Assembly: GCF_008801925.2 (NCBI RefSeq)
Contig: NZ_CP062804.1
Coordinates: 2,294,001-2,358,000 of the forward strand
Direction of reading: 5' to 3'
Length of the DNA: 64,000 nt
Origin: Cupriavidus basilensis
GTDB lineage: Bacteria; Pseudomonadota; Gammaproteobacteria; Burkholderiales; Burkholderiaceae
A program made the position numbers and the translations under genes. Shown here in pieces: positions 43,828-63,634 of the stretch (position 1 is its first letter; each line of letters starts with the position of its first letter). The notes beneath the pieces are model-generated. The model was not told the origin of the DNA, ran no database searches, and worked only from the letters and a program-made list of their open reading frames with translations.

Positions 43828-44997
43828 CTAATCCCGCCCACCTCCAAACACCCGTTTCACCCTCTCCCACATCACCCCCAACATCATCGACACCGGGTTC
43901 ATCTGCGTGGCCTGGCTGCGCTCGCTCTCCGACAACGACGGGTCCATCTTGCGGGCGACGTTCTTGCCGAAGTCCGCCATCATGCGCCGGACAAAATCGC
44001 GCACCAGCCCCGAGCGGGAGAACTGCGCGAGCGGGCCTTGCAGGGAGTACTGCAGGTCGATCAGCACTTCGGTCTCGCCCACCGATATCGCCTGCAGCAC
44101 ATAGGTGATGTCGCCGGCGGCCTTGGAGTTGCTCAGCGAATCCTGCCCCGCGCCCTTGAGCACGCCGCGCCGGTTCGCGTCGTCGCGCTCGAGCCGCGCC
44201 GCGCCGTTGAAGCGCGCCGCCATCGGCCCGAACTTGATCGCCACATGCCCCTTGACGCGATCGCCGTCCTGCTCGGTGAGCGCCGCGCCTGGCAGGCAGC
44301 TTGCCACCGCCGGCAGGTCCGCCATGAAGCGCCACACGTCGTCAGCCGGGAACGGCACCTTGAAGCTGCCGTCGATGCGCGACCAGCCCTTTTTGTCAGC
44401 GCTGCGCTCGGCGTCTTCCTTGGTGGCAGGCTCGGCGTGGGCCAGGACAGCGCTGTCGGCCGCAGGCGTGAAGCAGACGAATTCGCGCTTCACGGTCGCT
44501 GCTACGGCTTGCACCACGTTACCCGTTGCAGGCGGCTTGCGCTGCGCCAGCACGGAGCTGATCGCGGCCACGATCCCCATATAGCCTGTGCAGCGGCAGA
44601 GGTTGCCCGATAGCTCTTGGCGGATGGTTGCCTCGTCGGCATCCGGCAGCCGCAGCACGATGTCGCGCGCGGTGGCCAGCATGCCGGGCGTGCAGTAGCC
44701 GCATTGCAGCGCGTGGTGCTGGTTGAACGCGGCGCGCAGGTCGCGCATGACGGGGTCGTCGTCATAGCCTTCGATGGTCACCACCTTGCTGCCGGCGCAG
44801 GCGCTGGCAAAGGTGATGCACGAGCGCACGGGCTTGTCGTCGACCAGCACGGTACAGGCGCCGCAAACCCCGTGCTCGCAGCCCAGGTGGGTGCCGGTCA
44901 GGCCCTGTGCGTCGCGCAGGAAGTCGCCCAGGTGGGTGCGGTGCGCGCAGGCGCCGGACGCGGCGCGGCCATTGATCGTCAGTGCGATGGTTTCCAC
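43828..44997 (-). CDS. picA: Picolinate dehydrogenase 2Fe-2S subunit fused to a CoxG-like domain
   Basis: 389 residues from GTG 44997. Residues 1-155 are a complete two-cluster ferredoxin subunit of the xanthine dehydrogenase family: Cys40, 45, 48, 60 for the plant-type cluster and Cys99, 102, 134, 136 for the second. After a linker, residues ~215-370 are a CoxG/SRPBCC domain (GSFKVPFPADDVWRFMADLPAVASCLPGAAL), normally a separate membrane-anchoring/maturation protein. It passes electrons from the molybdenum site to FAD. Last gene of the minus-strand unit with the FAD and Mo subunits. Picolinate as substrate is inferred from the surrounding pic genes. Confidence 0.85.
   Translation of the reverse strand: METIALTINGRAASGACAHRTHLGDFLRDAQGLTGTHLGCEHGVCGACTVLVDDKPVRSCITFASACAGSKVVTIEGYDDDPVMRDLRAAFNQHHALQCGYCTPGMLATARDIVLRLPDADEATIRQELSGNLCRCTGYMGIVAAISSVLAQRKPPATGNVVQAVAATVKREFVCFTPAADSAVLAHAEPATKEDAERSADKKGWSRIDGSFKVPFPADDVWRFMADLPAVASCLPGAALTEQDGDRVKGHVAIKFGPMAARFNGAARLERDDANRRGVLKGAGQDSLSNSKAAGDITYVLQAISVGETEVLIDLQYSLQGPLAQFSRSGLVRDFVRRMMADFGKNVARKMDPSLSESERSQATQMNPVSMMLGVMWERVKRVFGGGRD
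43857..43880 (+). repeat. Right copy of 24-bp direct repeat flanking the T6SS island
   Basis: Identical to 32298-32321. It lies within the last 18 codons of the 2Fe-2S/CoxG gene (codons for VMWERV), so the island could have entered at, or duplicated part of, this gene end. Confidence 0.7.
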
Positions 44998-45005
44998 TGC
45001 GGCCC

Positions 45006-45833
45006 TCAGTTGAAAAGTTGTTCGATGCAGCGCGTGACGGCTGCGCAGCAGAGCTTGCGGTCGATCGCATCCTTGGCCGGCGTGGCTTGCGTCACGGCGG
45101 CCAGCACGGCCTGCGGCGTGAGCGCGGCGGGGCCTTGCGCGGCAATGTCGCTGGCGAGGCCGCGCAGCAGCGCCGGCGCGCCGTCGAGCGCGCCCAGCGC
45201 GATGCGGGCGAAGCGCGTGGACGGATCGAAGTACGCGGCGCAGCTGGCCTCGGCGAACTCGCCAGTCTTGCGGCACAGCTTGTGGTAGCCCCACCGTGCC
45301 GTATCGGGCTGGCTCGGCACATGGACGGCGCAGATCAGCTCGCCTTCGGTGAGCGCCGTGGTGTACGCACCCAGCATGAACTCCGTCATGGGGACGATGC
45401 GCGTGCCAGCCTTCGATGCAAGCTCGATCTGCGCGTCAATGGCGGTCAGCGCCACCACCCAGTCCGCTGCGGGATCGGCGTGCGCCAGGCTGCCGCCGAT
45501 GGTGCCGCGATTGCGGATGGCGCGGTAGGCGATGCCGCGCGCCACGGATTGCAGCATGCCGCCGCGCAGTGCCGGGAATTCGCCATCCTCGATCTGCGCA
45601 TGGGTGACCGCTGCGCCGATGCGCACGCGATCCTGCTGCGTGGTGACCGTGCGTAGCTCGGCCAGCTTCGACAGGTCGTAGATGGCATCGGGGCGCGTCA
45701 GGCGCAGGTTGAGCATCGGCCCCATGGACTGCCCGCCGCCCATGACCTTGGCGTTGTCGGTGCGGTCCGCCAGCTCGGCGCAGGTGGCGGCCAGCGTGGG
45801 GGCCGCGTGATAGGTGAATGCAGCTGCTTTCAT
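45006..45833 (-). CDS. picA: Picolinate dehydrogenase FAD-binding subunit (CoxM-like)
   Basis: 275 residues of the molybdopterin-dehydrogenase FAD family: AFTYHAAPTLAATCAELA, the FAD motif AKVMGGGQSMGPMLNLRL, and the second motif IRNRGTIGGSLAHADPAADW. It lies 6 bp after the Mo subunit gene and 8 bp before the 2Fe-2S/CoxG gene, so the three form one operon. It transfers electrons from the iron-sulphur centres to an external acceptor. Confidence 0.9.
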   Translation of the reverse strand: MKAAAFTYHAAPTLAATCAELADRTDNAKVMGGGQSMGPMLNLRLTRPDAIYDLSKLAELRTVTTQQDRVRIGAAVTHAQIEDGEFPALRGGMLQSVARGIAYRAIRNRGTIGGSLAHADPAADWVVALTAIDAQIELASKAGTRIVPMTEFMLGAYTTALTEGELICAVHVPSQPDTARWGYHKLCRKTGEFAEASCAAYFDPSTRFARIALGALDGAPALLRGLASDIAAQGPAALTPQAVLAAVTQATPAKDAIDRKLCCAAVTRCIEQLFN

Positions 45834-45839
45834 GATGGT

Positions 45840-48248
45840 TCAGGCCGCCTCTCTGGTTGGCGTGGTCTGCGGCTTCCGGGCTTGCTCGGCGCGGGCCAGC
45901 GCTTCAAGCACCTTGCGCGGCGTGAGCGGGGTCTCCAGCAACTCCACGCCGAACTGCCCCAGCGCGTCGTTGACCGCGTTGAAAATGGCCGCAGGGGGCG
46001 CGATGGCGCCGCCCTCGCCCATGCCCTTGGCGCCGAATTCCGTATGCGGCGACGGCGTCTCGAAATGGTGGATGCGGATCGAGGGGATTTCGGTCGGGCC
46101 AGGCAGCATGTAGTCGGCCAGCGTGGAGGCCAGCGGCTGGCCGTTGCCGTCGTAGCGCATCTCCTCGAACATGGCCGTGCCGATGCCTTGCGCCACACCG
46201 CCATACGTCTGCCCTTCCACCACCATGGGGTTGACCATGGTGCCGCAGTCTTCCACCACCACGTAGTCGAGGATCTCGACGTGGCCGGAATCGGTGTCCA
46301 CCTCCACCAGCGCGGCGTGGGTGGAATACGTGAAGCTGCCGGTATCCACGTTGGGCTTGTAGCCCATGGTGGTTTCCAGCCCGGTGGGATCCACATTGGC
46401 GGGCAGCCGCTGCGGGTTGATATACCAGGCGTTGGCGATCTCGCTGATCGGCACGGCGGCGTCGCCCGCCTTGACCGAACCACAAGCCAGCGTCGCCTCG
46501 TCCTCGGGACGCTGCAGCATATGCGCGCCGATCTTCAGCAGGCGCGGCACCAGCGCCTTGCATGCACGCGATACCGCGCCGCCCGACATCACCAGCGAGC
46601 GCGAAGCATAGGTGCCGGTGGAGAACGGCGTCACACCGGTGTCCCCATGCACGACCTTCACGCGCGCCACATCGATGCCGAGGATCTCGTGCGCGATCTG
46701 GGCAAAGGTAGTCTCCATGCCCTGGCCATGCGAGTGCACGCCCACGCGCACTTCCAGCCCGCCATCCGGCGTGATGCGCACGGTGGCGGAATCGAAGCCG
46801 GGAATCACCGGCGTGCCCCATGCAGCGAATACCGAGGTGCCGTGCGCCGATTGCTCGGTGTAGGTGCCAAAGCCCACGCCGAGATAGCGCGAGCCCGCCG
46901 AAGGATCGTTCAGCCTTTGACGCTGGCGCTCACGGATGCGCGCCAGCCCGATCATCTGCGCGGCCTTGCGCACGCTGGCCGGGTAGTCGCCGCCATCGAA
47001 GTGCTTGTTGGTGACGTTGACATAGGGCATGGATTCCGGCTGGACCAGGTTCTCGCAGCGGATCTCCCACGGCTCGCGCTTGACCTCGCGCGCCAGCGCA
47101 TCCATCAGCAGTTCCATGGCAAAGCACACGCCCGTGCGCGCCACGCCCCGGTACGGGACAAAGCCGGGCTTGTTGGTGGCCACGCATTCCGTGATGCAGC
47201 GGTAGCCGTCGAAGGCGTACGGCCCCGGCAGGTTGCCGATGGCCTGGCCGGGTTCAAGGCCGATGGTGAAGGGCCACACCGAATAGGCGCCGCCGTCGAT
47301 GGCGATCCTGGCGTCCAGCGCCAGCAGGCGCCCGCGCGCGTCGGCGTAGGCCGTGACCTCGTAATGGTGCTCGCGCGAGTTGGCGCCCGCGGTCAGGTGC
47401 TCGCGCCGGTCTTCGATAAAGCGGAACGGTTTGCGGTACGTCATGGCGAGCCAGGCGATGCACAGCTCCTCTTGCTGCAGCACGCACTTGTAGCCAAAGG
47501 CGCCGCCCACGTCGGGCGAGATCACGCGGACTTTTTCCTGCTCCAGGCCCAGGCAATGGCTGAGCACCGTGCGGATCATGTGCGGCACCTGGGTGGCGCT
47601 GTAGACGATCAGCTGGTCGAACTGGTGGTCCCAGTAGGCCAGCACGGCCTTGCCTTCCATCGGCACCATGCACTGGCGCGCCAGGTCGATCTTGCGGCTG
47701 ACCACCACCGCAGCGGTCTTGCTGAGCGTGTCGAAATTCTTGTCGGCGGTGAGTGTGAGGAAGTGATTGTCTTTCCAGTGCTCGTGCACGCGCGTGGTGC
47801 CGCTGGCCTGCCGTGCACCATCGACATCGGTGAGTGCCGGCAGCTCATCGAGCTCCGCGACGATGCGCTCGGCGATGTCCTCGGCCTGCGCGCGGGTCGG
47901 CGCGAAGGCCATGGCGATGGGCTCGCCGACAAAGCGGACCTTGCCGGCGGCCAGGGGCGGCTGCGCCGACGGCTGGTATGACGGGAAAGCCGATTCGGCC
48001 ACGATATCGAGCGCGCCATGCATATCGTCCCGCCCGATCACCGCATGCTCCAGCCCTACCGGCTTGTGCAGCGCCAGCAGCCGCGCATGCGCCATGGGGC
48101 TGCGCAGGAACGCAACCTCCTGCAGGCCGGGCATGGCGATGTCGGCGACGAAGCGGCCCTTGCCATGCAGGTGGCGCGCGTCCTCCTTGCGCGCCACGCG
48201 CGCGCCTACACCCCGCCCGCCTTGCTTCTCGATGTGGTCTTTGTCCAT
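45840..48248 (-). CDS. picA: Picolinate dehydrogenase molybdopterin-binding large subunit (CoxL-like)
   Basis: 802 residues from the ATG at 48248 (GGAGAAA upstream). The N-terminal a/b hammerhead (ARKEDARHLHGKGRFVADI) and Mo-cofactor domains (GGAFGYKC; PYRGVARTG; GEGGAIAPPAAIFNAVNDAL) are complete. Catalyses hydroxylation of an N-heterocycle with water-derived oxygen, here proposed 6-hydroxylation of picolinate, the first step. It lacks the CO-dehydrogenase AYRCSFR loop, so CO oxidation is unlikely. The promoter side carries a TCAGTGCACTGA operator. Confidence 0.88.
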   Translation of the reverse strand: MDKDHIEKQGGRGVGARVARKEDARHLHGKGRFVADIAMPGLQEVAFLRSPMAHARLLALHKPVGLEHAVIGRDDMHGALDIVAESAFPSYQPSAQPPLAAGKVRFVGEPIAMAFAPTRAQAEDIAERIVAELDELPALTDVDGARQASGTTRVHEHWKDNHFLTLTADKNFDTLSKTAAVVVSRKIDLARQCMVPMEGKAVLAYWDHQFDQLIVYSATQVPHMIRTVLSHCLGLEQEKVRVISPDVGGAFGYKCVLQQEELCIAWLAMTYRKPFRFIEDRREHLTAGANSREHHYEVTAYADARGRLLALDARIAIDGGAYSVWPFTIGLEPGQAIGNLPGPYAFDGYRCITECVATNKPGFVPYRGVARTGVCFAMELLMDALAREVKREPWEIRCENLVQPESMPYVNVTNKHFDGGDYPASVRKAAQMIGLARIRERQRQRLNDPSAGSRYLGVGFGTYTEQSAHGTSVFAAWGTPVIPGFDSATVRITPDGGLEVRVGVHSHGQGMETTFAQIAHEILGIDVARVKVVHGDTGVTPFSTGTYASRSLVMSGGAVSRACKALVPRLLKIGAHMLQRPEDEATLACGSVKAGDAAVPISEIANAWYINPQRLPANVDPTGLETTMGYKPNVDTGSFTYSTHAALVEVDTDSGHVEILDYVVVEDCGTMVNPMVVEGQTYGGVAQGIGTAMFEEMRYDGNGQPLASTLADYMLPGPTEIPSIRIHHFETPSPHTEFGAKGMGEGGAIAPPAAIFNAVNDALGQFGVELLETPLTPRKVLEALARAEQARKPQTTPTREAA

Positions 48249-48391: not shown

Positions 48392-48403
48392 TCAGTGCAC
48401 TGA
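48392..48403. promoter_or_regulatory. PicR-type operator, picA promoter
   Basis: TCAGTGCACTGA, a perfect 12-bp palindrome of the family repeated through this cluster, located 144 bp before the picA large-subunit start and just downstream of the picF end. Confidence 0.65.
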
Positions 48404-48450: not shown

Positions 48451-49101
48451 TCAGCCGATGCAGTGCCGGGCCAGCGCCGCCAGCGCCTGCTCACGCGGCA
48501 TCACGGCGGCGTACTTCTGCTCCATGTCGAACAAATTGGCCGCGTGTGGCTGGAGCGCGCGGTCGCCCACGCAGTCCGACACCACCAGCGGGCGGAACCC
48601 GTGCGACATGGCATCGACCACGCTGGCGCGCACGCAGCCGCTGGTGACCGCGCCGGCCACCACCAGCGTGCGCACGCCGCGCTGCGTCAGCCACGCCGCC
48701 AGCGACGTGCCGAAGAAGGCGGACGGCACGGTCTTGCGCACCACCAGCTCGCCATCGCGCGGGGCCAGCTGCGCAACGATCGCGCTGGCCGGCCCATGCT
48801 CCTTCAGCGTCAGCAGGCCGGGCACCTTCAGCGTGAAGATGTTGTGGTCGCCATCGTCATCGGCAAACACGATCCGGCTGTGCGCCACCGCCCAGCCCTG
48901 TTGCCGCGCGCTGTCCAGCAGCGGCACCGTGTTGGCGATGGCCTCGGCGATATTGCCGCCGCCGAACATCGCCGGATCGGCGAAGCCGTTGACGAAGTCG
49001 ACGATCAGCAGGCCGATGGGGCCCTGCAGCGGCAGTTGGGTGCCGAAGCCCTGGCGCTCGTAGGTAGGGAGTTCGCCATGTCTCGTCATTTGCTGCTCCA
49101 T
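48451..49101 (-). CDS. picF: Maleamate amidohydrolase (isochorismatase family)
   Basis: 216 residues with the cysteine-hydrolase triad Asp35 (LLIVDFVNGF), Lys123 (VVRKTVPSAFF) and Cys156 (VTSGCVRAS) and the adjacent cis-peptide AVTSGC. It matches NicF/PicF-type enzymes that hydrolyse maleamate to maleate and ammonia, rather than generic isochorismatases, and sits with the other four lower-pathway genes. The start overlaps the end of picD by 16 bp; an alternative start at 49089 is possible. Confidence 0.88.
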   Translation of the reverse strand: MEQQMTRHGELPTYERQGFGTQLPLQGPIGLLIVDFVNGFADPAMFGGGNIAEAIANTVPLLDSARQQGWAVAHSRIVFADDDGDHNIFTLKVPGLLTLKEHGPASAIVAQLAPRDGELVVRKTVPSAFFGTSLAAWLTQRGVRTLVVAGAVTSGCVRASVVDAMSHGFRPLVVSDCVGDRALQPHAANLFDMEQKYAAVMPREQALAALARHCIG

Positions 49102-50132
49102 CCGTCCAGTACCTTGCCTTGCCGGACCACGTCCTCGCCGTCCAGGCTCACGGTGCAGTTGCGCAACGGGATATCGATATGGCAGGCGGTGGTGCGGCTG
49201 CCGCCTGCCTCGTTGTTGGGGCCGAGCGAGAACAGGAAATTACCCTCGTAAGCCCGCGCGTCCATGCCGATCGAGGCCTCCCTGTCATACAGGCCCAGCG
49301 TGGACCACCGCGCGCGCGGCTGCAGGCCCCAGCCGATATGCGAGATGGCATAGGCCTCGCGGTCGTTGAACGAGGCCATGTAGTCGTTCAGCAGCTCGGC
49401 ATCCAGGCCACCTTCGATGCGCGTGGCAAAGCCCCCTTCCACGGTCAACTCGACCCGGTCCGCCACGTAGCCTTTTTGCGGCAGCAAGATGTCACCGCGG
49501 TCCAGCACGATGCGCCCGCTCGCGCCGCCCTCGTTCGGCCAGGTCAGCACGAAACCGCTGGGCCAGTGATCCCAGCGCCCCGGCTCGTCGACGAAGCCGT
49601 ACTCGCTGATGGCGGGAAACTCGCCGAGCGGGCAGCGCAGGTCGGTGCCCGCGTCAGATGTGACCGTCATCTCCTTCGCCCGCGACAAGCGCGCGTTGGC
49701 GGCGCTCACGCGCTCGCGGTCGGCGTCGCTGGGCACCATGCGCACCAGCACTTCGGGCGGCTCCACCGCCAGCAGGATCTTGGTGCCGGTCTTGAGGATA
49801 TCGTGCTGCTCGGGCGAGAACAGCAGCGTCATCAGGTCCAGCACCAGGTCGCTCTCCTTGAGCGCGGCAATGGCCGCGCGGTTGCCGGTGAGCGCCGTGG
49901 TGCCCAGGTAGGCCAGCGGATCGCGGCTCAAGGCCTTGTCCGCGTTGACGGGCGGCAGGTCCAGGCGATTGACGATGGCGCCCATCGCCTGGGTGGCAAC
50001 CAGTGCGCACGACAGCGTCTGCGGATGCGTGGCGGCGCTGGTGAGAATGGTGACGGTCTGCCCGGGCGCGAGCCGGGACAGCGTGAGGACCTGTTTCCAG
50101 GCCTGGATCAGGGCGTGGTCACTGACTGGCAT
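49086..50132 (-). CDS. picD: 2,5-Dihydroxypyridine 5,6-dioxygenase
   Basis: 348 residues, close to NicX (about 350) along its length: PEQHDILKTGTKILLAVEPPEVL, EYGFVDEPGRWDHWPSGF, ISHIGWGLQPRA, CHIDIPLRNC. The Fe(II) ligands expected for NicX, His265, His318 and Asp320, are all present at those numbers. It opens the 2,5-dihydroxypyridine ring with O2 to give N-formylmaleamate. Part of the operon picC-G-E-D-F read on the minus strand. Confidence 0.93.
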   Translation of the reverse strand: MPVSDHALIQAWKQVLTLSRLAPGQTVTILTSAATHPQTLSCALVATQAMGAIVNRLDLPPVNADKALSRDPLAYLGTTALTGNRAAIAALKESDLVLDLMTLLFSPEQHDILKTGTKILLAVEPPEVLVRMVPSDADRERVSAANARLSRAKEMTVTSDAGTDLRCPLGEFPAISEYGFVDEPGRWDHWPSGFVLTWPNEGGASGRIVLDRGDILLPQKGYVADRVELTVEGGFATRIEGGLDAELLNDYMASFNDREAYAISHIGWGLQPRARWSTLGLYDREASIGMDARAYEGNFLFSLGPNNEAGGSRTTACHIDIPLRNCTVSLDGEDVVRQGKVLDGWSSK

Positions 50133-50168: not shown

Positions 50169-51014
50169 TCAGGCCGCGGCCTGTTGCCGGGGGACAATTT
50201 CGGCGCCGAGGAAGTCGCCCAGCGCGTTGTAGAAGCCGCCCTCGTCGTCCCAGGGAATCATGTGGCCGGCGCCCGGTACATGGCTGACTTCAAGCTGCGG
50301 CAGCAGCCCGCGAATCTCCTCGATATCCTCGGCGCGGACCACATCGCCACGGCCTGCCACCATCAACAAGGCGGGAATGCCAATGCCTGGCAAGTCGGCG
50401 TGCACATCGTCGGTGTGGAAGCCCTGGAAGCTGGCCAGCACTGCGCGCTCGTCGCAGGTGTGCAGCCATTCGGCGCGCAACGCCAGCTGCTCGTCGGTCC
50501 AGGTGGGACAGAAGCGCCGCATGGTCTCGATGTCCACGCCGTGGCGCGCCACCGCCATGGAGTCCACATACCAGGCGAGCTGCGCGGGATAGTCGCGCCG
50601 GCCCGGACCGGACACGGGCGGATCCACCATCACCAGCCGCGCCAGCCCGGCAGGCTGGCTGCGCGCGGCACGGATGCCGATGCGCGCGCCCATCGAATGG
50701 CCCACCACGCTGTAGGTGGGCAGGTTCATCGCCTGCGCGAACGCCAGCACGTCGGCGGCCTGGGCGTCCAGGCTGTAGTCCAGCGTGTCCGAAGCGGACG
50801 ACAGGCCGCGTCCGCGCACATCCAGCACATAGGTATCGAACTGCTCGCCAAGGCGCTCGCCTACGAAGCCCCAGGTGATAGCCGGGCTGGTGATGCCCGG
50901 CACCACGATCACCGGATCGCGCGTCACGCGCGCGCCGCTGTGGCCGCCATAGCGGAGATAGTGCTGGCGGATGCCGTTGGCGTGGACGTTGCCGCCGCAA
51001 ACAAAGGTACGCAT
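50169..51014 (-). CDS. picE: N-formylmaleamate deformylase (alpha/beta hydrolase)
   Basis: 281 residues, close to NicD: FVCGGNVHANGIRQHYLRYGG, VPGITSPAITWGFV, YVLDVRGRGLSS and PPVSGPGRRDYP. The triad is Ser107 (VVGHSMGAR), Asp131 (VMVDPPVSG) and His251 (GAGHMIPWDD). It removes formate from N-formylmaleamate to give maleamate in the cytoplasm. Starts one base from the isomerase stop, consistent with coupling. Confidence 0.93.
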   Translation of the reverse strand: MRTFVCGGNVHANGIRQHYLRYGGHSGARVTRDPVIVVPGITSPAITWGFVGERLGEQFDTYVLDVRGRGLSSASDTLDYSLDAQAADVLAFAQAMNLPTYSVVGHSMGARIGIRAARSQPAGLARLVMVDPPVSGPGRRDYPAQLAWYVDSMAVARHGVDIETMRRFCPTWTDEQLALRAEWLHTCDERAVLASFQGFHTDDVHADLPGIGIPALLMVAGRGDVVRAEDIEEIRGLLPQLEVSHVPGAGHMIPWDDEGGFYNALGDFLGAEIVPRQQAAA

Positions 51015-51015
51015 C

Positions 51016-52794: not shown

Positions 52795-52806
52795 TCAGTA
52801 TGCTGA
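52795..52806. promoter_or_regulatory. PicR-type operator, picC promoter
   Basis: TCAGTATGCTGA, one of the cluster's repeated palindromes, 41 bp upstream of the picC start on the minus strand. Confidence 0.7.
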
Positions 52807-52888
52807 GCATTTTTAATATAGCAACGAGGTTGGGGAATGTCTAGCCGGAGCCAAAAGGGTTAACCCCCATAACACTGACAAATTCTGC

Positions 52889-52922
52889 TCAGTACACTGA
52901 TTGAAATTACTCAGCATGCTGA
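52889..52922. promoter_or_regulatory. Tandem PicR-type operators, transporter promoter
   Basis: TCAGTACACTGA (52889-52900) and TCAGCATGCTGA (52911-52922), centre to centre 22 bp, i.e. two helical turns on the same DNA face. They precede the MFS gene and share the divergent region with picC. Confidence 0.75.
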
Positions 52923-52977
52923 CAGTGTGGAGAACACACACGGGCAGGCTGACCTGCCCCCCCGGAGAGAAACGACC

Positions 52978-54640: not shown

Positions 54641-54673
54641 TCAGTACACTGCATTTAATATTCAGCATACTGA
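54641..54673. promoter_or_regulatory. Tandem PicR-type operators, ABC transporter promoter
   Basis: TCAGTACACTGC (54641-54652, one mismatch in the palindrome) and TCAGCATACTGA (54662-54673), start to start 21 bp, ahead of the substrate-binding protein gene. Confidence 0.72.
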
Positions 54674-55962: not shown

Positions 55963-56008
55963 GCCGCGATGCAGAACCAACCTGCCAAGACCAAACAGCG
56001 GAGCACGC

Positions 56009-56785
56009 ATGAGCCAGGCTGACGTCATCCTTGAAACCCGGGGCCTCACCAAGGAGTTCAAGGGCTTCACCGCCGTCAGCAAGGTCGACCTGCGCGTTCG
56101 GCGCGGCGCCATCCACGCCCTGATCGGGCCCAACGGCGCCGGCAAGACCACGTGCTTCAACCTGCTGACGAAGTTCCATGCGCCCTCCGCCGGGACCATC
56201 CTGTTCAATGGCGAGGACATCACGCGGGAGCGCCCCGCCCAGATCGCCCGCAAGGGCGTGATCCGGTCCTTCCAGATCTCGGCGGTGTTCCCCCAGCTCA
56301 CCGTGATGGAGAACGTGCGGGTGGCGCTGCAGCGCAAGCTCGGCACCGCTTATCACTTCTGGAAGAGCAAGCGCTCGCTGGACGAACTCAACGACCGCGC
56401 GCTCGCGCTGCTCAAGGCCGTCGGCCTTGAGGGCTTTGCCGACCTGCCGACCGCCGAGCTGGCCTATGGCCGCAAGCGTGCGCTGGAGATCGCCACCACG
56501 CTGGCCATGGACCCCGAGCTGATGCTGCTCGACGAGCCCACGCAAGGCATGGGGCACGAGGATGTGGAGGTGGTGACCGCCCTGATCAAGCAGGTTTCCG
56601 CGGGACGCACCGTGCTGATGGTGGAACACAATATGAGCGTGGTGTCGTCCATCGCCGAGCGCATCACCGTGCTCCAGCGCGGCGCCATCCTGGCGGAGGG
56701 ACCATACGAGGAAATGACGCGCAACCCGCAAGTGATGGAAGCGTACATGGGCACGGCCGATGCCGCCCTGACGGAGGCCGCATGA
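56009..56785 (+). CDS. livG: ABC transporter ATP-binding protein LivG-like
   Basis: 258 residues. Walker A is GPNGAGKTT near residues 42-50, the signature is replaced by the LivG-typical LAYGRKRALEIA, Walker B is PELMLLDEPTQGM, and the H-loop follows in LMVEHNM. The C-terminus (AYMGTAD) is the BCA ATP-binding tail. It pairs with the LivF-like protein encoded next (ATGA-type overlap). Confidence 0.9.
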   Translation: MSQADVILETRGLTKEFKGFTAVSKVDLRVRRGAIHALIGPNGAGKTTCFNLLTKFHAPSAGTILFNGEDITRERPAQIARKGVIRSFQISAVFPQLTVMENVRVALQRKLGTAYHFWKSKRSLDELNDRALALLKAVGLEGFADLPTAELAYGRKRALEIATTLAMDPELMLLDEPTQGMGHEDVEVVTALIKQVSAGRTVLMVEHNMSVVSSIAERITVLQRGAILAEGPYEEMTRNPQVMEAYMGTADAALTEAA

Positions 56786-57516
56786 TGAGCCAGCCCACCC
56801 CCGCCCTGCAGATCCAGGACCTGCACGCCTGGTACGGCGAATCCCACATCCTTCACGGCGTGGACCTGAGCGTCAACCCGGGCGAGGTCGTCACCGTGCT
56901 GGGCCGCAACGGCGCGGGCCGCACCACCACCATGCGCGCCATCATGGGGCTGGTCGGCGCCCGCAAGGGCTCGATCCGCGTCAACGGCGCCGAGACCATC
57001 GGCATGAAGACGCACCGCATCGCGCCGCTGGGCCTGGGCTATTGCCCGGAGGAACGCGCGATCTTCTCCAGCCTGTCGTGCGAGGAAAACCTGATGCTGC
57101 CACCGGTGTTCAAGCCTGACGCTGCAACGTCAGGCCGCGAGCCGATGCCGCTGGACGAGATCTACGCGATGTTCCCCAACCTGTGGGAACGCCGCAAGAG
57201 CCAGGGCACGCGCATGTCGGGCGGCGAGCAGCAGATGCTGGCCGTCGCCCGCATCCTGCGCACCCGCGCGAGCGTGCTGCTGCTCGATGAAATCTCCGAA
57301 GGCCTGGCCCCCGTCATCGTCCAGACCCTCGCCAGAATGATCACCACGCTCAAGAAACGCGGCTACACCATCGTCATGGTGGAGCAGAACTTCCGCTTCG
57401 CCGCGCCACTCGCCGACCGCTTCTACGTGATGGAGCACGGCCGCATGGTGGAGTGCTTCGATGCCAGCGCGCTCGCGCGCAAGATGCCCACGCTGAACGC
57501 CCTGCTTGGCGTGTAA
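56782..57516 (+). CDS. livF: ABC transporter ATP-binding protein LivF-like, Arg in Walker A
   Basis: 244 residues matching LivF: LQIQDLHAWYGESHILHGVDL, signature MSGGEQQMLAVARIL, Walker B SVLLLDEISEGLAPVIV, H-loop MVEQNFRF. The Walker A motif reads GRNGAGRTTT: the catalytic Lys is Arg47 (codon CGC at 56920). The partner LivG-like protein has a normal Walker A. The ATPase may be asymmetric, or Arg may be tolerated in this subfamily. Overlaps livG by four bases. Confidence 0.9.
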   Translation: MMSQPTPALQIQDLHAWYGESHILHGVDLSVNPGEVVTVLGRNGAGRTTTMRAIMGLVGARKGSIRVNGAETIGMKTHRIAPLGLGYCPEERAIFSSLSCEENLMLPPVFKPDAATSGREPMPLDEIYAMFPNLWERRKSQGTRMSGGEQQMLAVARILRTRASVLLLDEISEGLAPVIVQTLARMITTLKKRGYTIVMVEQNFRFAAPLADRFYVMEHGRMVECFDASALARKMPTLNALLGV

Positions 57517-57528
57517 GGAACCATCGTC

Positions 57529-58413
57529 ATGGAATTTTTTGGCATACCCATGCCCGCCCTGCTGAGCCAGTTGCTGCTCGGACTCGTCAACGGCTCGTTC
57601 TACGCCATCCTGAGCCTGGGGCTGGCAGTCATCTTTGGCCTGCTCAATGTCATCAACTTTGCCCACGGCGCCCTGTTCATGCTGGGCGCCGTGCTGGCCT
57701 GGATGGGCCTGGCCTACCTGGGGCTGAGCTACTGGCTGATGCTGCTTCTCGCCCCGCTCGTCACCGGCGTGCTGGGCGTGGTGCTGGAGCGCACCATGCT
57801 GCGCCGGCTCTATCGCTTCGATCACCTCTATGGCCTGCTGCTGACGCTAGGCATCTGCCTGCTGATCGAGGGGCTGCTGCGCTCGGCGTATGGCGTCTCC
57901 GGCCTGTCCTACGCCACGCCCGAGGCGCTGACCGGCGCCACCAGCGTGGGCTTCATGGTGCTGCCCAACTACCGCGCCTGGGTGGTGGCGGCCTCGCTGG
58001 TGGTGTGCTTCGCCACCTGGTACGTGATCGAGAAGACGCGGCTTGGCGCCTACCTGCGCGCCGGCACGGAGAACCCGCGCATGGTGGAAGCATTCGGCAT
58101 CAACGTGCCGTTGCTGGTCACGCTGACCTACGCCTTCGGCGTGGGGCTGGCCGCCTTTGCCGGCGTGCTGGCCGCGCCCGTGATGCAGATCTCGCCCCTG
58201 ATGGGCCAGAACCTGATCATCACCGTGTTCGCCGTGGTGGTGATCGGCGGCATGGGCTCGATCCTCGGTTCCATCTTCACCGGGCTGGGCCTGGGCGTGT
58301 TCGAAGGCATGACCAAGGTGTTCTACCCGGAAGCCTCGGCAACCGTCGTCTTCGTGGCCATGGTGTGCGTGCTGATGGTGCGCCCCGCCGGCCTGTTCGG
58401 AAAGGAAAAATAA
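57529..58413 (+). CDS. livH: ABC transporter permease LivH-like
   Basis: 294 residues with about eight helices and LivH signatures: LLLGLVNGSFYAILSLGLAVIFGLLNVINFAHGALFMLGA near the N-terminus, LRAGTENPRMVEAFGINV in the coupling loop, and VIGGMGSILGSIFTGLGLG toward the C-terminus. 12 bp after livF; its stop overlaps the livM start (TAATG). Confidence 0.92.
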   Translation: MEFFGIPMPALLSQLLLGLVNGSFYAILSLGLAVIFGLLNVINFAHGALFMLGAVLAWMGLAYLGLSYWLMLLLAPLVTGVLGVVLERTMLRRLYRFDHLYGLLLTLGICLLIEGLLRSAYGVSGLSYATPEALTGATSVGFMVLPNYRAWVVAASLVVCFATWYVIEKTRLGAYLRAGTENPRMVEAFGINVPLLVTLTYAFGVGLAAFAGVLAAPVMQISPLMGQNLIITVFAVVVIGGMGSILGSIFTGLGLGVFEGMTKVFYPEASATVVFVAMVCVLMVRPAGLFGKEK

Positions 58414-59480
58414 TGACCTTTGACTCTCGCGCAAGACTGACTGGCGCCTTGCTGATGGCGGCCGTCGCGCTGGCGCCCTTCCTCGGCGCCTACCCGGTGC
58501 TGGCCATGAAGCTGATGTGCTTTGCCTTGTTTGCCTGCGCCTTCAACCTGCTGCTGGGCTTTACCGGGCTGCTGTCGTTCGGCCATGCCGCGTTCTTTGG
58601 CGGCGCGGCCTATGCCTGCGGCTACGTGATGAAATCCCTGCACGCCACGCCGGAGCTCGGCCTGCTGGCCGGCACGGCGTTCGGCGCGCTGCTCGGCCTG
58701 GCCTTTGGCGCGCTGGCGATCCGGCGCCAGGGCATCTACTTTGCGATGGTGACGCTGGCGCTGGCGCAGATGTTCTACTTCTTCTGCCTGCAGGCCCCGG
58801 TGACGGGCGGCGAGGACGGCTTGCAGGCGGTGCCGCGCGGCAGCCTGTTCGGGCTGCTCTCGCTGGAGGGCGACCTGACGATGTACTACGTGGTGTCCAT
58901 CGTGGTCGGCGCCGCACTGCTGCTGATCGCGCGGGTGGTGAACTCGCCTTTCGGTCAGGTGCTGCGGGCCATCAAGGAGAACGAGCCGCGCGCCATCTCG
59001 CTGGGCTACGACACGGACAGGTTCAAGCTGCTGGCCTTTGTGCTGTCGTCCGCGCTGGCGGGACTGGCAGGCGCCTTGAAGACGCTGGTGCTCGGCTTTG
59101 CCACGCTGACCGACGTGCACTGGGCCATGTCCGGATCCGTCATCCTGATGACGCTGGTGGGCGGCATGGGCACCTTGTCCGGGCCGATCCTGGGCGCGCT
59201 GGTGATCGTCGCGGTCGAGAACAAGCTCGGCGATGCCGGCAGCAGCCTGGCCGCGATGACGGGGGTGGACTGGTTCAATACGCTGGGCGAGTCGGTCAGC
59301 ATGGTCACAGGCCTGATCTTCGTGGTCTGCGTGCTCACCTTTCGCCGCGGCATCATGGGCGAGGTGCAAGCGCTGCTGGAGCGCCGGGCCGCGCTGGCGC
59401 GCCCTGCCCCGGCCAGCGCCGCCGCGCCCTTGCACGGCCACTGCGCCACTGCGGCCACCTCGGCGACGCTCAAGGGTTAA
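58413..59480 (+). CDS. livM: ABC transporter permease LivM-like
   Basis: 355 residues with about nine helices. LivM signatures are FNLLLGFTGLLSFGHAAFFGGAAYACG, IRRQGIYFAMVTLALAQMFYF, LRAIKENEPRAISLGYDTDRFKLLAFVLS and MTLVGGMGTLSGPILGALV. The Ala-rich C-terminal tail is cytoplasmic. Completes the binding protein-G-F-H-M set; the order differs from the classical livKHMGF. Confidence 0.92.
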   Translation: MTFDSRARLTGALLMAAVALAPFLGAYPVLAMKLMCFALFACAFNLLLGFTGLLSFGHAAFFGGAAYACGYVMKSLHATPELGLLAGTAFGALLGLAFGALAIRRQGIYFAMVTLALAQMFYFFCLQAPVTGGEDGLQAVPRGSLFGLLSLEGDLTMYYVVSIVVGAALLLIARVVNSPFGQVLRAIKENEPRAISLGYDTDRFKLLAFVLSSALAGLAGALKTLVLGFATLTDVHWAMSGSVILMTLVGGMGTLSGPILGALVIVAVENKLGDAGSSLAAMTGVDWFNTLGESVSMVTGLIFVVCVLTFRRGIMGEVQALLERRAALARPAPASAAAPLHGHCATAATSATLKG

Positions 59481-59504: not shown

Positions 59505-59538
59505 TCAGTACACTGATCATTAATACTCAGCATACTGA
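59505..59538. promoter_or_regulatory. Tandem PicR-type operators, picB promoter
   Basis: TCAGTACACTGA (59505-59516) and TCAGCATACTGA (59527-59538), start to start 22 bp. The second ends 16 bp before the ferredoxin ATG, overlapping the probable promoter and adjoining AAAAGGAG. Confidence 0.78.
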
Positions 59539-59554: not shown

Positions 59555-59872
59555 ATGGCTTGGACCAAGATCGCCACCACCGGCCAGCTTCAGGACGATG
59601 AAGTGATGCCGCTCACGCTTGGCGACGCGCAGCTGGCCTTGTACCGCAGCGAAGGGGAGTACTTCGTCACCGACAACGTCTGCACGCACCAGTACGCGCT
59701 GCTGTCCGACGGCTACCTGGAGGATGGCTGCATCGAATGCCCGCTGCACCAGGCGCGCTTCGATATCCGCACCGGGCAAGCCATGTGCGCGCCCGCCACC
59801 CAGGGCATCAAGGTCTACCCGGTCAAGATCGTGGACAGTGATGTCCTGGTCGATGTCATGGTCACAGCCTGA
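59555..59872 (+). CDS. picB: PicB component: Rieske-type ferredoxin
   Basis: 105 residues, a complete Rieske ferredoxin with cluster ligands Cys43-x-His45 (NVCTHQYALL) and Cys62-x2-His65 (IECPLHQARF). It carries electrons from the reductase to the terminal oxygenase. AAGGAG sits well upstream of the ATG. First gene of four encoding a multicomponent oxygenase proposed to 3-hydroxylate 6-hydroxypicolinate. Confidence 0.9.
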   Translation: MAWTKIATTGQLQDDEVMPLTLGDAQLALYRSEGEYFVTDNVCTHQYALLSDGYLEDGCIECPLHQARFDIRTGQAMCAPATQGIKVYPVKIVDSDVLVDVMVTA

Positions 59873-59881: not shown

Positions 59882-61168
59882 ATGTCACAAGACGCTCCCA
59901 TCCTGATCATCGGCGCCGGCCAGGCTGGCGCCACGGCCGCCGCCGCGCTGCGCGCGCTGGGCCATGACGGCGGCATCGTCATGGTCGGCGGCGAGGCCCA
60001 TGCGCCGTATGAGCGCCCGCCGCTGTCCAAGGCCGTGCTGGCGGACGAGCAGCAAGACGAACGCATCGGCGTGCACGCGGCCGGCTTCTATGCCGAGCGA
60101 GACATCGACTTGCGCCTGGCCACCACCGTGGCCTCGCTCGATCCCGCCAGCGCCACGGCGCATTGCACCGATGGCCAGGTGATTTCCTTCAGCCGTTGCC
60201 TGCTGGCGACCGGTGGGCGTGCCCGCACCCTGGCCGCCCTGCCCGAGGGCCAGCCCCGGGTGCATTACCTGCGCTCGCTCGCCGATGCGCGCGGCTTGCG
60301 GGCCGCGCTGCGCCGCGAGCGCGCGGTGCTGGTGATCGGCGGCGGCTTCCTTGGACTGGAAACCGCTTCCACCGCCCGCGCCATGGGGCTGGCGGTGACG
60401 GTGGTCGAAGCCGCACCGCTGTTGCTGCAGCGCGCCGTGCCGAGCGTGTTCTCGGACTGGCTGGCGCAACGCGTGCGCGGCCTCGGCATCGACCTGCGCC
60501 TGGGCTGCGCGATCGCGTCGATCCCGCCGGCTGTGGACGAAGTTGCCATCACGCTGGCCGACGGCACTGCCCTGCGCGCGCCGCTGGTGGTGGTGGCCAT
60601 CGGGCTGCACCCCAATGTGGGCCTGGCCGAGGCAGCCGGGCTTGCGCTGCACCCGGGCAACGGCGGCATCCAGGTCGACGCGCACTGCCGCACCAGCGCG
60701 CCGGGTGTGTTTGCCGCCGGCGATTGCGCCAGCCAATACCAGCCGTTGTTTGGCCAGGAGATGCGCCTGGAGTCATGGCAGAACGCCAATGAGCAGGCCC
60801 GCATCGCCGCGGCCGCCATGCTCGGCGTGACGACGGCCCCGGCCGCCTTGCCCTGGTTCTGGACCGACCAGCTCGGCTGCAATATCCAGATGCTGGGCGC
60901 CATGGATCCCACCCTGCGCTACGCGCTGCGCGGCAGCACAGAAGCCCCCGACGCCGGCACGCCCCCCAGATTCCTGCTGCTTGGCATGGCCGGCGCGCAA
61001 CTGCGCCACGCCATTGCCGTCAACGCGGGCGGCGACCTGCGCCAGCTTCGCAACCTGATCGAACAAGGCACCGCCTGCGATATCGGCTTGCTGTGCGACA
61101 CCGCCCTGCCCTTGAAGCAGGCGGCGCGCGAAGCCGCCGCCGTGCGCGCGAGCGAAACCCAATCCTGA
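59882..61168 (+). CDS. picB: PicB component: NAD(P)H-ferredoxin reductase
   Basis: 428 residues of the FAD-dependent ferredoxin reductase family: FAD-binding IIGAGQAGATAAAALRALG, NAD-binding VIGGGFLGLETASTARAMG, FAD motif GVFAAGDCASQY, and a reductase C-terminal domain (WFWTDQLGCNIQMLG). It passes electrons from NAD(P)H to the adjacent Rieske ferredoxin. 9 bp after the ferredoxin gene. Confidence 0.9.
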   Translation: MSQDAPILIIGAGQAGATAAAALRALGHDGGIVMVGGEAHAPYERPPLSKAVLADEQQDERIGVHAAGFYAERDIDLRLATTVASLDPASATAHCTDGQVISFSRCLLATGGRARTLAALPEGQPRVHYLRSLADARGLRAALRRERAVLVIGGGFLGLETASTARAMGLAVTVVEAAPLLLQRAVPSVFSDWLAQRVRGLGIDLRLGCAIASIPPAVDEVAITLADGTALRAPLVVVAIGLHPNVGLAEAAGLALHPGNGGIQVDAHCRTSAPGVFAAGDCASQYQPLFGQEMRLESWQNANEQARIAAAAMLGVTTAPAALPWFWTDQLGCNIQMLGAMDPTLRYALRGSTEAPDAGTPPRFLLLGMAGAQLRHAIAVNAGGDLRQLRNLIEQGTACDIGLLCDTALPLKQAAREAAAVRASETQS

Positions 61169-61182: not shown

Positions 61183-62472
61183 ATGTACCAGACCCATGCG
61201 GTCATCAACCGCACGCCGCGCGCCAAGGATGCCGAACTGGCCGCCTGCCAGTGGCCGGAAGACGCCCTGCATTTCATCCCTGACTGGGTGTACACCAGCA
61301 ATGCCGTGTACGACCTGGAACTGGAGAAGATCTTCCGCGGCCGCTCGTGGAATTTCGTCGCGCTGGAGGCCGAGATTCCCAACTCGGGCGACTTCAAGCG
61401 CTCTTACGTCGGGCCGACGCCCGTCGTCGTGGCGCGCGCTGAAGACGGCTCCGTCAATGTCTTCGAGAACCGCTGCGCGCACCGCGGCGCGGAGTTCTGC
61501 CGGCATGGCCAGGGCAACGCCAAGGAGTTCGTCTGCCCGTATCACCAGTGGTCCTACGACCTGAAGGGCAACCTGCAGGGCGTGCCGTTCAAGCGCGGCG
61601 TGAATCGTGCAGGCGGCATGCCCAAGGACTTCCGCAATGAAGACCATGGCCTGGTGAAGCTGAACGTGGCCACGCGCAACGGGGTGATCTTCGCCTCGTA
61701 CGCCAACGACATGGAACCGCTGGACGTGTATATGACGCCGGAAATCCTCAAGGATTTCGATGTGGTGTTCAACGGCAAGCCGCTCAAGGTCCTCGGGTAC
61801 TACAAGAACGAGTTGCCCTGCAACTGGAAGATGTACCACGAGAACCTGAAGGACCCGTACCACGCCACGCTGCTGCACTCCTTCCTGGTGGTGTTCGGCC
61901 TGCTGGTCGCCGGCAACGACTCCGCCATGATCGCCGACCCGGTGCACGGCCGCCACGGCACCATGGCCTCGGCCAAGAAAGAAGACAAGTACGCGGCGGT
62001 GAGCGACGAGAACAAGAAGGAGATGCGCTCCTACCACGAAGGCATGCGCCTGCAGGACGACCGCTTCCTGGAGTACATCAAGGAGTTCGATTCGCCGTGG
62101 TCCGTCACCATGCAGACCATCTGGCCGAACCTGATCGTGCAGCGCGAGATGAACACGCTGGGCGTGCGCCAGATCGTGCCCAACGGCCCGGACAGCATGC
62201 TGATGCAGTGGACCATGTTCGGCTATGAGGACGACACCGAGGAGATGACGCGCCACCGCCTGCGCCAGGGCAACCTGATGGGCCCGGCCGGCTTCCTTGG
62301 CCTGGAAGACAACGAGGCGATGAAGTTCGTGCAGGAAGGCGTGCGCCGCTCCAGCACCGACCGCAATGTGCTGAAGCTCGATCCCGGACACGTCGGCACC
62401 GCCAACTCGCTGATCTCGGAGTCCGCGATCCGCGCCATGTACCAGTACTACCGCAGCGTGATGGGGTTCTGA
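61183..62472 (+). CDS. picB: PicB component: Rieske non-heme iron oxygenase large subunit
   Basis: 429 residues from the ATG at 61183 (GAGGAACG upstream). The Rieske centre is Cys98-x-His100 and Cys118-x2-His121 (FVCPYHQWSYD). Mononuclear iron ligands are His227 and His232 in ENLKDPYHATLLHSF; the usual bridging Asp lies just before in KDPYH. It is the catalytic alpha subunit. In this cluster its proposed reaction is 3-hydroxylation of 6-hydroxypicolinate; a different pyridine carboxylate cannot be excluded. Confidence 0.9.
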   Translation: MYQTHAVINRTPRAKDAELAACQWPEDALHFIPDWVYTSNAVYDLELEKIFRGRSWNFVALEAEIPNSGDFKRSYVGPTPVVVARAEDGSVNVFENRCAHRGAEFCRHGQGNAKEFVCPYHQWSYDLKGNLQGVPFKRGVNRAGGMPKDFRNEDHGLVKLNVATRNGVIFASYANDMEPLDVYMTPEILKDFDVVFNGKPLKVLGYYKNELPCNWKMYHENLKDPYHATLLHSFLVVFGLLVAGNDSAMIADPVHGRHGTMASAKKEDKYAAVSDENKKEMRSYHEGMRLQDDRFLEYIKEFDSPWSVTMQTIWPNLIVQREMNTLGVRQIVPNGPDSMLMQWTMFGYEDDTEEMTRHRLRQGNLMGPAGFLGLEDNEAMKFVQEGVRRSSTDRNVLKLDPGHVGTANSLISESAIRAMYQYYRSVMGF

Positions 62473-62477: not shown

Positions 62478-63026
62478 ATGACACCGACAATCACCCCAAC
62501 CATGACACCGATGGCGCATAGCCTCTTTCGCCCCTGCCAGCTGGCCCCCGCGCGCGCGCAAGCGCTGCGCATGGAGATCGACGCCTTCCACAGCGAATAC
62601 TGCGCCGTGCTCGATGCCGGCATGGTGGAAACGTGGCCCGAGTTCTTTACCGAGGATTGCATCTACCGCGTCACCGCGCGGGAGAACGTGGAACTCGGGT
62701 TGCCGGTGGGGCTCGTCTATGCAGAAGGCCGCGGCATGATGCACGACCGGGCGGTGGCGATTGCGCGCACCCAGATGTTCGCGCCGCGCTATATGCTGCA
62801 TCTCGTCACCAATACGCGCGTCACCGATGAAGGCGAATCTGGCGAGATCCAGGCCCAGGCCAGCTTCCTGCTGCTGCAAACGCTGGTCGAAGGCCCCACC
62901 ACCATCCACATGGCGGGCACGTATCACGACCGCTTCGCCCGCGTCGAGGGCAAGCTGCTGCTGGCCGAGCGCCAGGTCGTGTACGACACCACCATCATCG
63001 CCAACGACCTGGTGTATCCGGTCTGA
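62478..63026 (+). CDS. picB: PicB component: ring-hydroxylating oxygenase small subunit
   Basis: 182 residues from ATG 62478; starts at 62502 or 62511 are also possible. NTF2-like beta subunit of Rieske oxygenases: MEIDAFHSEYCAVLDAGMVETWPEFFTEDCIYRVTARENVE at the N-terminus and FARVEGKLLLAERQVVYDTTIIANDLVYPV at the end. It is structural, stabilising the alpha3beta3 hexamer. 5 bp after the alpha subunit gene; last gene of the picB unit. Confidence 0.9.
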   Translation: MTPTITPTMTPMAHSLFRPCQLAPARAQALRMEIDAFHSEYCAVLDAGMVETWPEFFTEDCIYRVTARENVELGLPVGLVYAEGRGMMHDRAVAIARTQMFAPRYMLHLVTNTRVTDEGESGEIQAQASFLLLQTLVEGPTTIHMAGTYHDRFARVEGKLLLAERQVVYDTTIIANDLVYPV

Positions 63027-63041: not shown

Positions 63042-63062
63042 GCGCCGGCGCCATGCCGGCGC
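63042..63062. terminator. GC-rich hairpin between convergent picB and picR
   Basis: GCGCCGGC (63042-63049) and GCCGGCGC (63055-63062) form a perfect 8-bp stem with a 5-nt loop. There is no T-run on either side, so termination is only suggested by its position between two convergent genes. Confidence 0.4.
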
Positions 63063-63069
63063 GCTGTCG

Positions 63070-63600
63070 CTACATGATGCGCAACACGGTGCGGCTATAG
63101 TCGTTGTTAGCCTCGACCAGCGTGGACAGCAGGTCCATGAACACCTTGCGCTGCGCCGGGCGCAACGGCGCCAGCATGCGCTCCTGCGCGCGTTCCATGT
63201 CGGCGCGCAGCGACGCCACCACGGTCTGCCCTTCCTTGGTCAGGTGCACGTGGCGCGTGCGGCGGTCGGCCGGATTGTCCTTGCGCTCGACCAGGCCACG
63301 TTCTTCCAGGCGGCGCACCACGTCGGCGGTGGTGGTGCGGTCAAAGCCGACTTCCTGCCCCAGCGCGGTCTGGTCCAGCCCGGGCAACACGGACAATACC
63401 GTCAGGATGGCGTACTGCACCGGCGTGATGCTGGGAGACTTGCATTCCTCGAAAAACATGGCCACGTGGATCTGGTGCAGGCGACGCACCAGGAAACCGG
63501 GCCGCGCCCACAGAAGCGCCTTGGCCGGGTCCGCTTCGGACGGCGCCGGATCCTCGGCCGGAGGAGCGGAGCGCGTCGTTTGACGTTTTGCAGAGGACAT
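63070..63600 (-). CDS. picR: MarR-family regulator of the pic regulon
   Basis: 176 residues. The winged helix is recognisable: SITPVQYAILTVLSVLPGLDQTALGQEVGFDRTTTADVVRRLEERGLVERKDNPADRRTRHVHLT. A flexible N-terminal extension of ~35 residues precedes it. MarR proteins bind palindromes as dimers and leave DNA when an aromatic ligand binds. Its own promoter carries a palindrome of the same type as those before picA, picC, the transporters and picB, so it is the best candidate for the cluster repressor. Confidence 0.88.
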   Translation of the reverse strand: MSSAKRQTTRSAPPAEDPAPSEADPAKALLWARPGFLVRRLHQIHVAMFFEECKSPSITPVQYAILTVLSVLPGLDQTALGQEVGFDRTTTADVVRRLEERGLVERKDNPADRRTRHVHLTKEGQTVVASLRADMERAQERMLAPLRPAQRKVFMDLLSTLVEANNDYSRTVLRIM

Positions 63601-63612
63601 TCAACTCACCAA

Positions 63613-63634
63613 ACTTGTTAGCATGCTGACAAGT
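63613..63634. promoter_or_regulatory. PicR-type operator at its own promoter
   Basis: TTAGCATGCTGA (one mismatch to the family) inside a longer 22-bp inverted repeat, ACTTGT...ACAAGT, immediately upstream of picR. Suggests autorepression. Confidence 0.68.

Follow-up and report, generated by a model that had tools for sequence, protein, structure and literature searches.

Does the gene cluster at positions 43828-63634 of a 64-kb window of the 8.94-Mb Cupriavidus basilensis genome (G000:C2:2294001-2358000; "window" denotes this whole stretch) encode a complete route for the degradation of picolinic acid, and is it picolinate, rather than nicotinate or another pyridine compound, that the cluster serves? 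A first-pass annotation proposed that every step from picolinate to fumarate is encoded here, and the open reading frames and their translations bear this out: the cluster consists of 19 intact genes that comprise the whole pic pathway, two transport systems and a MarR-family regulator, and the enzymes are recognizable by domain matches, matches to PDB chains and catalytic residues. The best explanation of the full data set appears to be an intact, co-regulated picolinate catabolic locus, to which we assign a probability of roughly 0.92, and the locus is probably functional for this substrate. Picolinate as the substrate class, also proposed in the first-pass annotation, is supported by the phylogeny of the oxygenase alpha subunit, the gene neighborhood, the catalytic residues, the palindromes shared with other pic loci and the presence of a separate cluster for nicotinate.

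Gene content and the proposed pathway

Along the forward strand, the genes are arranged in the order picA3, A2, A1, F, D, E, G and C (all on the minus strand), followed by a major facilitator superfamily (MFS) transporter, livK, G, F, H and M and the ferredoxin, reductase, alpha and beta genes of picB (all on the plus strand), and by the MarR gene on the minus strand. The genes were identified using Pfam and NCBIfam domain searches, sequence comparison with the PDB and inspection of motif residues; none of the locus proteins that were run reached a curated NCBIfam equivalog cut-off.

The four components of the predicted Rieske oxygenase PicB are a ferredoxin (59555..59872; PF00355, AndAb-like but below the cut-off), a ferredoxin reductase (59882..61168; Pyr_redox_2 and Reductase_C), the alpha subunit (61183..62472), a probable 6-hydroxypicolinate 3-monooxygenase, and the beta subunit (62478..63026; Ring_hydroxyl_B). 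The alpha subunit contains the Rieske ligands C98/H100/C118/H121 and the iron ligands D224/H227/H232, and its Arg329 aligns with R309 of terephthalate dioxygenase (TPADO), described as the only substrate-contact residue conserved among the annotated members of the group, including a picolinate enzyme (PMC9060491). In a "quick" maximum-likelihood tree of 56 alpha subunits, the window protein and 45 other picC-linked sequences make up one side of a branch with a support of 100 in the Shimodaira-Hasegawa-like approximate likelihood ratio test, whereas the remaining ten sequences (three annotated as AndAc, one as NagG, one as BphA1, four unnamed oxygenases and the NagG-like paralogue from the same genome) fall outside; a 23 aa fragment from L005 and the alpha gene of L001, truncated where the locus stops, were left out. 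At 28 positions, at least 45 of the 46 pic sequences have the same residue, which none of the ten others has there. With NagG and the terephthalate/anthranilate group, PicB alpha has in common the ligands of the Rieske cluster and of the iron as well as the arginine equivalent to TPADO R309 (PMC9060491), but it differs from them in forming a separate clade with its own diagnostic positions, and we conclude that a four-component PicB orthologue is present at the locus, the tree referring to the alpha subunit. Grouping with enzymes of other proven substrates, which the first-pass annotation had named as the outcome that would speak against picolinate, was examined for this subunit only and was not observed. 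The NagG-like paralogue, which is about 45% identical to PicB alpha, is encoded together with beta and ferredoxin genes at about 728 kb of the same contig (L089 5855-7911).

PicC, the predicted 3,6-dihydroxypicolinate decarboxylase (51792..52754, minus strand; Amidohydro_2), is most similar in the PDB to gamma-resorcylate decarboxylase (3s4t) and, among named PicC proteins that were found, to that of C. basilensis OR16 (97% identity). In the alignment, its H163 and H216 occupy the positions of the two histidines that are essential in PicC of Bordetella bronchiseptica RB50, whose replacement abolished the activity of the purified enzyme (PMC10142695). We further asked how often the two enzymes occur together, using 58 loci found by a PicC scan, 54 with PicC at least 60% identical and four with PicC at 47-52%. 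PicB alpha is encoded within the fetched flank in 45 of the 54 genomes; a whole-genome search (E 1e-80) of the other nine detected it in eight more (66-81% identity), which brings the co-occurrence to 53 of 54, and the same search found no PicB alpha in any of the four genomes with the distant PicC.

The dehydrogenase that is linked to picC contains molybdenum, flavin adenine dinucleotide (FAD) and 2Fe-2S subunits, all encoded on the minus strand. The molybdopterin subunit PicA1 (45840..48248; 802 aa; MoCoBD_1/2, with GMGEGG at 742) is most similar to quinoline 2-oxidoreductase (1t3q, E 2e-143), and the FAD subunit PicA2 (45006..45833; PF00941) adjoins A1 and A3 in relatives as well. The open reading frame at 43828-45294 encodes the 2Fe-2S subunit; its gene model is corrected to 43828..44997, with a GTG start at 44997, encoding a 389 aa PicA3 in which the Fe-S domain (Fer2_2; small subunit of 1t3q) is fused to a C-terminal CoxG domain (COXG; 8uds).

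The lower-pathway enzymes, likewise encoded on the minus strand, match PDB chains over nearly their full length. These are PicD, a 2,5-dihydroxypyridine 5,6-dioxygenase of the NicX type (49086..50132; 7cn3, E 8e-126); PicE, N-formylmaleamate deformylase (50169..51014; 4l0c, E 3e-90; GHSMG motif); PicF, maleamate amidohydrolase (48451..49101; PF00857; 3ot4/3uao, E 3e-99); and PicG, maleate isomerase (51016..51795; 4fq7, E 2e-114; Cys89 and Cys207). PicD has no match in the Pfam or NCBIfam searches, and we take its H265, H318 and D320 to be the iron ligands; 3ot4/3uao, titled putative isochorismatase in the PDB, is presumably a maleamate amidohydrolase.

The proposed pathway begins with the entry of picolinate through the MFS symporter, the LivKGFHM importer or both. 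PicA would then convert picolinate to 6-hydroxypicolinate, with the CoxG domain of its Fe-S subunit holding the enzyme at the membrane and electrons passing to quinone, and PicB would add a hydroxyl at C3, para to the 6-hydroxyl, yielding 3,6-dihydroxypicolinate, an aza-gentisate; this chemistry is likened to that of the nearest solved relative, salicylate 5-hydroxylase, which forms gentisate. Decarboxylation by PicC would yield 2,5-dihydroxypyridine, and PicD, E, F and G would turn this into fumarate, with N-formylmaleamate, maleamate and maleate as intermediates. PicR, the MarR-family regulator, may repress the transcription units by way of TCAG-N4-CTGA palindromes until released by a pathway compound. 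The order of reactions is that of the published picolinate pathway (PMC10142695).

Operator-like palindromes and the choice of substrate

The palindrome TCAGYRYRCTGA precedes every gap-separated gene group of the cluster, with one mismatch in the case of picR. A single site (TCAGTGCACTGA, 48392..48403) lies 144 bp before picA1. Three sites (52795, 52889 and 52911, within 52795..52922, the last two 22 bp apart) are located between the divergent picC and MFS genes, 41, 135 and 157 bp before the former and 61, 83 and 177 bp before the latter. A pair at 54641..54673 (54641 with one mismatch, 54662 exact) is found 89 and 110 bp before livK, a second pair (59505 and 59527, 22 bp apart; 59505..59538) 28 and 50 bp before the ferredoxin gene of picB, and the site with one mismatch (63618..63629) 18 bp before picR itself (63070..63600, minus strand; PF01047). 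All three pairs are spaced by 21-22 bp.

The window contains seven exact palindromes, all within the gaps of the pic cluster; allowing one mismatch raises the count to 15, where 2.3 would be expected, and of these sites nine fall in pic gaps and six outside them. Genome-wide, 25 sites were detected compared to three for the reversed pattern. The four central bases include CG in all 18 sites outside the cluster and in none of the seven inside, a split that was noticed post hoc; a central CG does occur in some of the pic-locus sites in Achromobacter and Pusillimonas. Across the 58 picC loci, the palindrome is present in 44 (142 sites), with no occurrence of the reversed pattern and 0-3 occurrences of each of 12 other palindromes (7 in total); in 29 of 57 loci it is found no more than 300 bp ahead of picC, and elsewhere it is mostly located before other pic genes. 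The MarR gene and the TCAG-N4-CTGA sites are both present at the locus, and PicR is the putative binding protein. TCAG-N4-CTGA is reportedly the PicR site of Alcaligenes faecalis (Xu et al. 2022); a literature search for the exact operator string returned no paper.

A second NicX copy in the same genome (82% identity) led to a separate, apparently complete nic cluster at about 199-211 kb of the contig (L088; ~2750-11275 of this locus corresponds to about 199-207 kb). This cluster encodes a molybdenum/cytochrome c protein NicB (haem motifs recognized by reading), a NicA-like Fe-S protein, NicC, for which the top PDB hit is 6-hydroxynicotinate 3-monooxygenase (5eow, E 1e-163), and G-E-D-F proteins of its own, which are 96, 75, 82 and 77% identical to those of the pic locus, respectively. 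The two clusters accordingly share the lower pathway, but in nic the NicB, NicA and NicC proteins stand in place of PicA, PicB and PicC, and no exact palindrome is found in the nic stretch. The first-pass annotation had pointed to the lack of a NicC-like monooxygenase; no NicC flavin monooxygenase is encoded among the genes of the pic locus, so the statement is valid locally, but not for the genome, where NicC belongs to the nic cluster. Given that the DNA of the maleate isomerase genes is 93% identical between the two clusters, against 81% for the E-D stretch and 84% for F, there is a hint of gene conversion.

The four lower genes are common to the nic route, and a CoxG homologue has been proposed as the anchor of a 3-hydroxypyridine dehydrogenase (PMC11962113), so the cluster might be thought to degrade nicotinate, or some other pyridine, for instance 3-hydroxypyridine, whose breakdown converges at 2,5-dihydroxypyridine. 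However, nicotinate was rejected as the substrate because the genome has a nic cluster elsewhere, complete with NicC and a G-E-D-F set, and PicB and PicC, which would have no role in the breakdown of nicotinate or 3-hydroxypyridine, nevertheless occur together in 53 of 54 genomes; we consider this alternative very unlikely. A similarly low probability is assigned to the possibility that the oxygenase acts on anthranilate (AndA) or salicylate (NagG) and merely happens to lie next to a pyridine cluster. The best NCBIfam matches are indeed AndAb for the ferredoxin, AndAc for alpha, AndAd for beta and HcaD, followed by AndAa, for the reductase, and NagG (7c8z, E 1e-123) is the best PDB match of the alpha subunit; yet all four components remain below the AndA cut-offs (118/150, 362/650, 433/750 and 126/230 bits), the tree sets apart AndAc, NagG and the NagG-like paralogue of the same genome, and the picB operon is preceded by the palindrome pair of the cluster. 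An anthranilate or salicylate oxygenase was rejected on the basis of the cut-offs and the tree.

The substrate of PicA is not fixed by its sequence, and a molybdenum hydroxylase could make the substrate of PicC from 3-hydroxypicolinate; the locus might then serve 3-hydroxypicolinate or dipicolinate, with PicA directly producing 3,6-dihydroxypicolinate. Such a direct route, however, would leave the conserved four-component PicB without a role, and it appears extremely improbable.

Several observations weigh against the picolinate locus as described. The "quick" tree contains branches marked as long, several of them in the outgroup and one belonging to a pic row (L026), which makes it less sure. 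In Pelagibacterium lacus (L044), with PicC at 63% identity, no PicB alpha was detected in the genome at E 1e-80. Given that the best PDB match of PicA1 is quinoline 2-oxidoreductase and that tree support is limited to PicB alpha, the probable assignment of picolinate to PicA rests on gene linkage; moreover, four loci (L034, L035, L039 and L056) keep PicB and PicC next to a divergent molybdenum enzyme (A1 at about 34% identity). The exact palindrome is missing in 14 of the 58 loci, namely four of Bradyrhizobium, three of Advenella (these three have it with one mismatch before picC), L022, L045, the short L048 and the four distant-PicC loci, and a fifth Bradyrhizobium locus has one stray site.

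The Pelagibacterium locus has the palindrome upstream of PicC, and the second hydroxylation may be performed there by another enzyme. In the four Pigmentiphaga-type loci, the divergent enzyme (at ~1.9-6.5 kb of each locus; A3 at about 51% identity) is accompanied by a separate CoxG gene beside picB, and one locus, L041, has both this enzyme and the usual PicA; it is possible that the divergent enzyme replaces PicA or that it acts on another substrate.

The CoxG domain of the dehydrogenase

In PicA3, Pfam and PDB comparisons place the CoxG domain after the Fe-S domain (PF06240, 61.5 bits against a cut-off of 22.2), and the predicted fold of this part superimposes on CoxG of Mycobacterium smegmatis (8uds) with a template-modelling score of 0.91 normalized on the target and a root-mean-square deviation of 1.6 A, so that the domain belongs to the CoxG family by both sequence and fold. 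The mean predicted local distance difference test (pLDDT) score for the fused subunit is 66.5; given that the CoxG part is modelled well but the Fe-S part, the linker and the tail poorly, we draw no conclusion on how the domains are arranged.

Of 25 genomes searched, 18 encode the Fe-S/CoxG fusion in one frame at the pic locus: in 16, the whole fusion, at 58-91% identity, lies beside pic genes, and the other two are Saccharospirillum (43%) and Noviherbaspirillum galbum (two matched pieces in one frame). One-frame fusions or their relatives were also detected on a contig other than that of the pic locus in Pigmentiphaga litoralis, outside the fetched pic locus in an Alcanivorax metagenome-assembled genome (42%) and elsewhere in the genome of Bradyrhizobium sp. 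C9 (48%); Pigmentiphaga sp. NML030171, P. kullae and the two distant-PicC genomes among the 25 yielded no full-length match. Within the fetched flanks, both parts share a single stop-free frame in 19 of the 20 loci that have them, including four of Bradyrhizobium, the exception being L027. Pic loci with the fusion occur repeatedly among beta-, gamma- and alphaproteobacteria. The best 120 of 7999 database relatives all contain both Pfam domains, a result that the length limits of the search favor.

Given that further Fe-S/CoxG fusions are located away from pic loci, in Pusillimonas caeni (G009:C5:46400-47611), Cupriavidus numazuensis (G002:C11:134848-135987) and Bradyrhizobium sp. C9 (G014:C34:15599-16768), pic enzymes are not the only ones to have this fusion. 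Two further relatives of the fused subunit (P0008 and P0009), of 651-654 aa, contain PF10604 besides the Fe-S and CoxG domains.

The fusion ends in a tail with the consensus NPVAMFFSVLWxRIKRxFG, in which W377, R379 and F384 are invariant in all 24 aligned sequences. When all sequence windows of a protein are ranked by hydrophobic moment, the tail comes between 1st and 41st, depending on the protein, so this amphipathic segment is notable but not unique.

CoxG of Sulfolobus acidocaldarius anchors G3PDH (PMC11962113), and CoxG of the molybdenum CO dehydrogenase has been described as quinone-binding (PMC13240472). PicA resembles the CO dehydrogenase in having 2Fe-2S, FAD and molybdenum subunits together with a CoxG domain, but differs from it in that CoxG is fused to the Fe-S subunit and in that PicA1 is closer to quinoline 2-oxidoreductase. 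The presence of the fusion at the pic locus in 18 of 25 genomes suggests a dehydrogenase that is attached to the membrane and linked to quinone through CoxG. A more specific version, in which PicA is a membrane-docked respiratory enzyme whose fused CoxG domain and amphipathic tail extract ubiquinone, so that hydroxylation of the pyridine would feed the electron transport chain directly, has in our view an even chance of being correct; if true, it would explain both the recurrence of the fusion across proteobacterial pic loci and the CoxG gene beside the divergent Pigmentiphaga enzyme. Set against such a role are the internal TAG in one of the 18 fusion frames, that of Eoetvoesiella caeni; the pic locus of Bradyrhizobium sp. 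C9, where the Fe-S and CoxG parts do not share a frame; the low confidence of the tail helix (pLDDT below 50 over much of 365-389); and the finding that CoxG of S. acidocaldarius is dispensable for quinone reduction by G3PDH in vitro (PMC11962113).

Variation of the locus among relatives

The first-pass annotation drew attention to the difference in layout from A. faecalis; the weight given to this difference is not supported. Eight Cupriavidus loci (L001-L007 and L053), read from PicB alpha to PicA, have the same order as the window, and so does a cut locus of Burkholderiaceae bacterium 16 (L047) as far as it is readable; the fetched flank stops short of the MarR gene and, in most loci, of the beta gene, so that the comparison does not extend to this end. 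Given this agreement, the layout is ordinary for the genus. A scan of 60 Cupriavidus genomes, which overlap with the named loci, found a PicC-like match at E 1e-60 in 25, of which 22 are at least 78% identical (one of them a partial match); the MFS gene is divergent from picC in 20 of these 22, and the other two pieces show none of it.

Bordetella loci, in which the genes are ordered as published for RB50, were used as a stand-in for A. faecalis. The enzyme set and the MarR regulator are those of the A. faecalis JQ135 and B. bronchiseptica RB50 pic clusters (PMC10142695), and the Bordetella loci contain the same palindrome. In Bordetella and Achromobacter, however, the genes are arranged as R, C G E D F, B, A, whereas in Cupriavidus picA is found past picF, at the end of the cluster most distant from picB, and the MFS and LivKGFHM genes take the place of a DctP gene for a solute-binding protein of the tripartite ATP-independent periplasmic (TRAP) type. 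Loci of Bordetella, Achromobacter, Pusillimonas and Variovorax have the DctP gene in the interval that separates picB from picA (L030 18146-19456, checked by Pfam; L009 18202-19416, L013 18053-19339 and L008 3781-4899, by reading). The layouts of Variovorax, Pigmentiphaga and Bradyrhizobium differ again, and a Variovorax boronicumulans plasmid has its own ATP-binding cassette (ABC) and MFS genes beside the pic genes. The core of pic enzymes recurs, and the transporters are exchanged between lineages.

The "two transporters" of the first-pass annotation are more precisely one MFS gene (52972-54582) and a five-gene ABC importer (54751-59480), all on the plus strand. The former is a predicted metabolite:H+ symporter related to TIGR00883 (343 bits, below the cut-off of 443), about 70% identical to an MFS gene of Bradyrhizobium pic loci. 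The latter comprises a periplasmic binding protein of the LivK type (54751..55962; Peripla_BP_6), the ATPases LivG (56009..56785; ABC_tran and BCA_ABC_TP_C) and LivF (56782..57516; identified by its translation and conserved in Cupriavidus loci) and the permeases LivH (57529..58413) and LivM (58413..59480), both with BPD_transp_2. Picolinate is the putative cargo of both systems. In addition, four short tandem-repeat arrays were found.

Among the publications listed by the literature searches, none deals with a pic cluster of Cupriavidus, although such a paper may well exist. The locus very probably allows the organism to use picolinic acid, through a pathway that is already known from related bacteria, and its analysis documents this pathway across Cupriavidus together with a readable set of putative operator sites. 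The 28 PicB positions, the TCAGYRYRCTGA sites and the PicC histidines provide markers that separate picolinate loci from those for nicotinate or anthranilate, and the CoxG fusion points to a simple test of electron transfer from the picolinate dehydrogenase.

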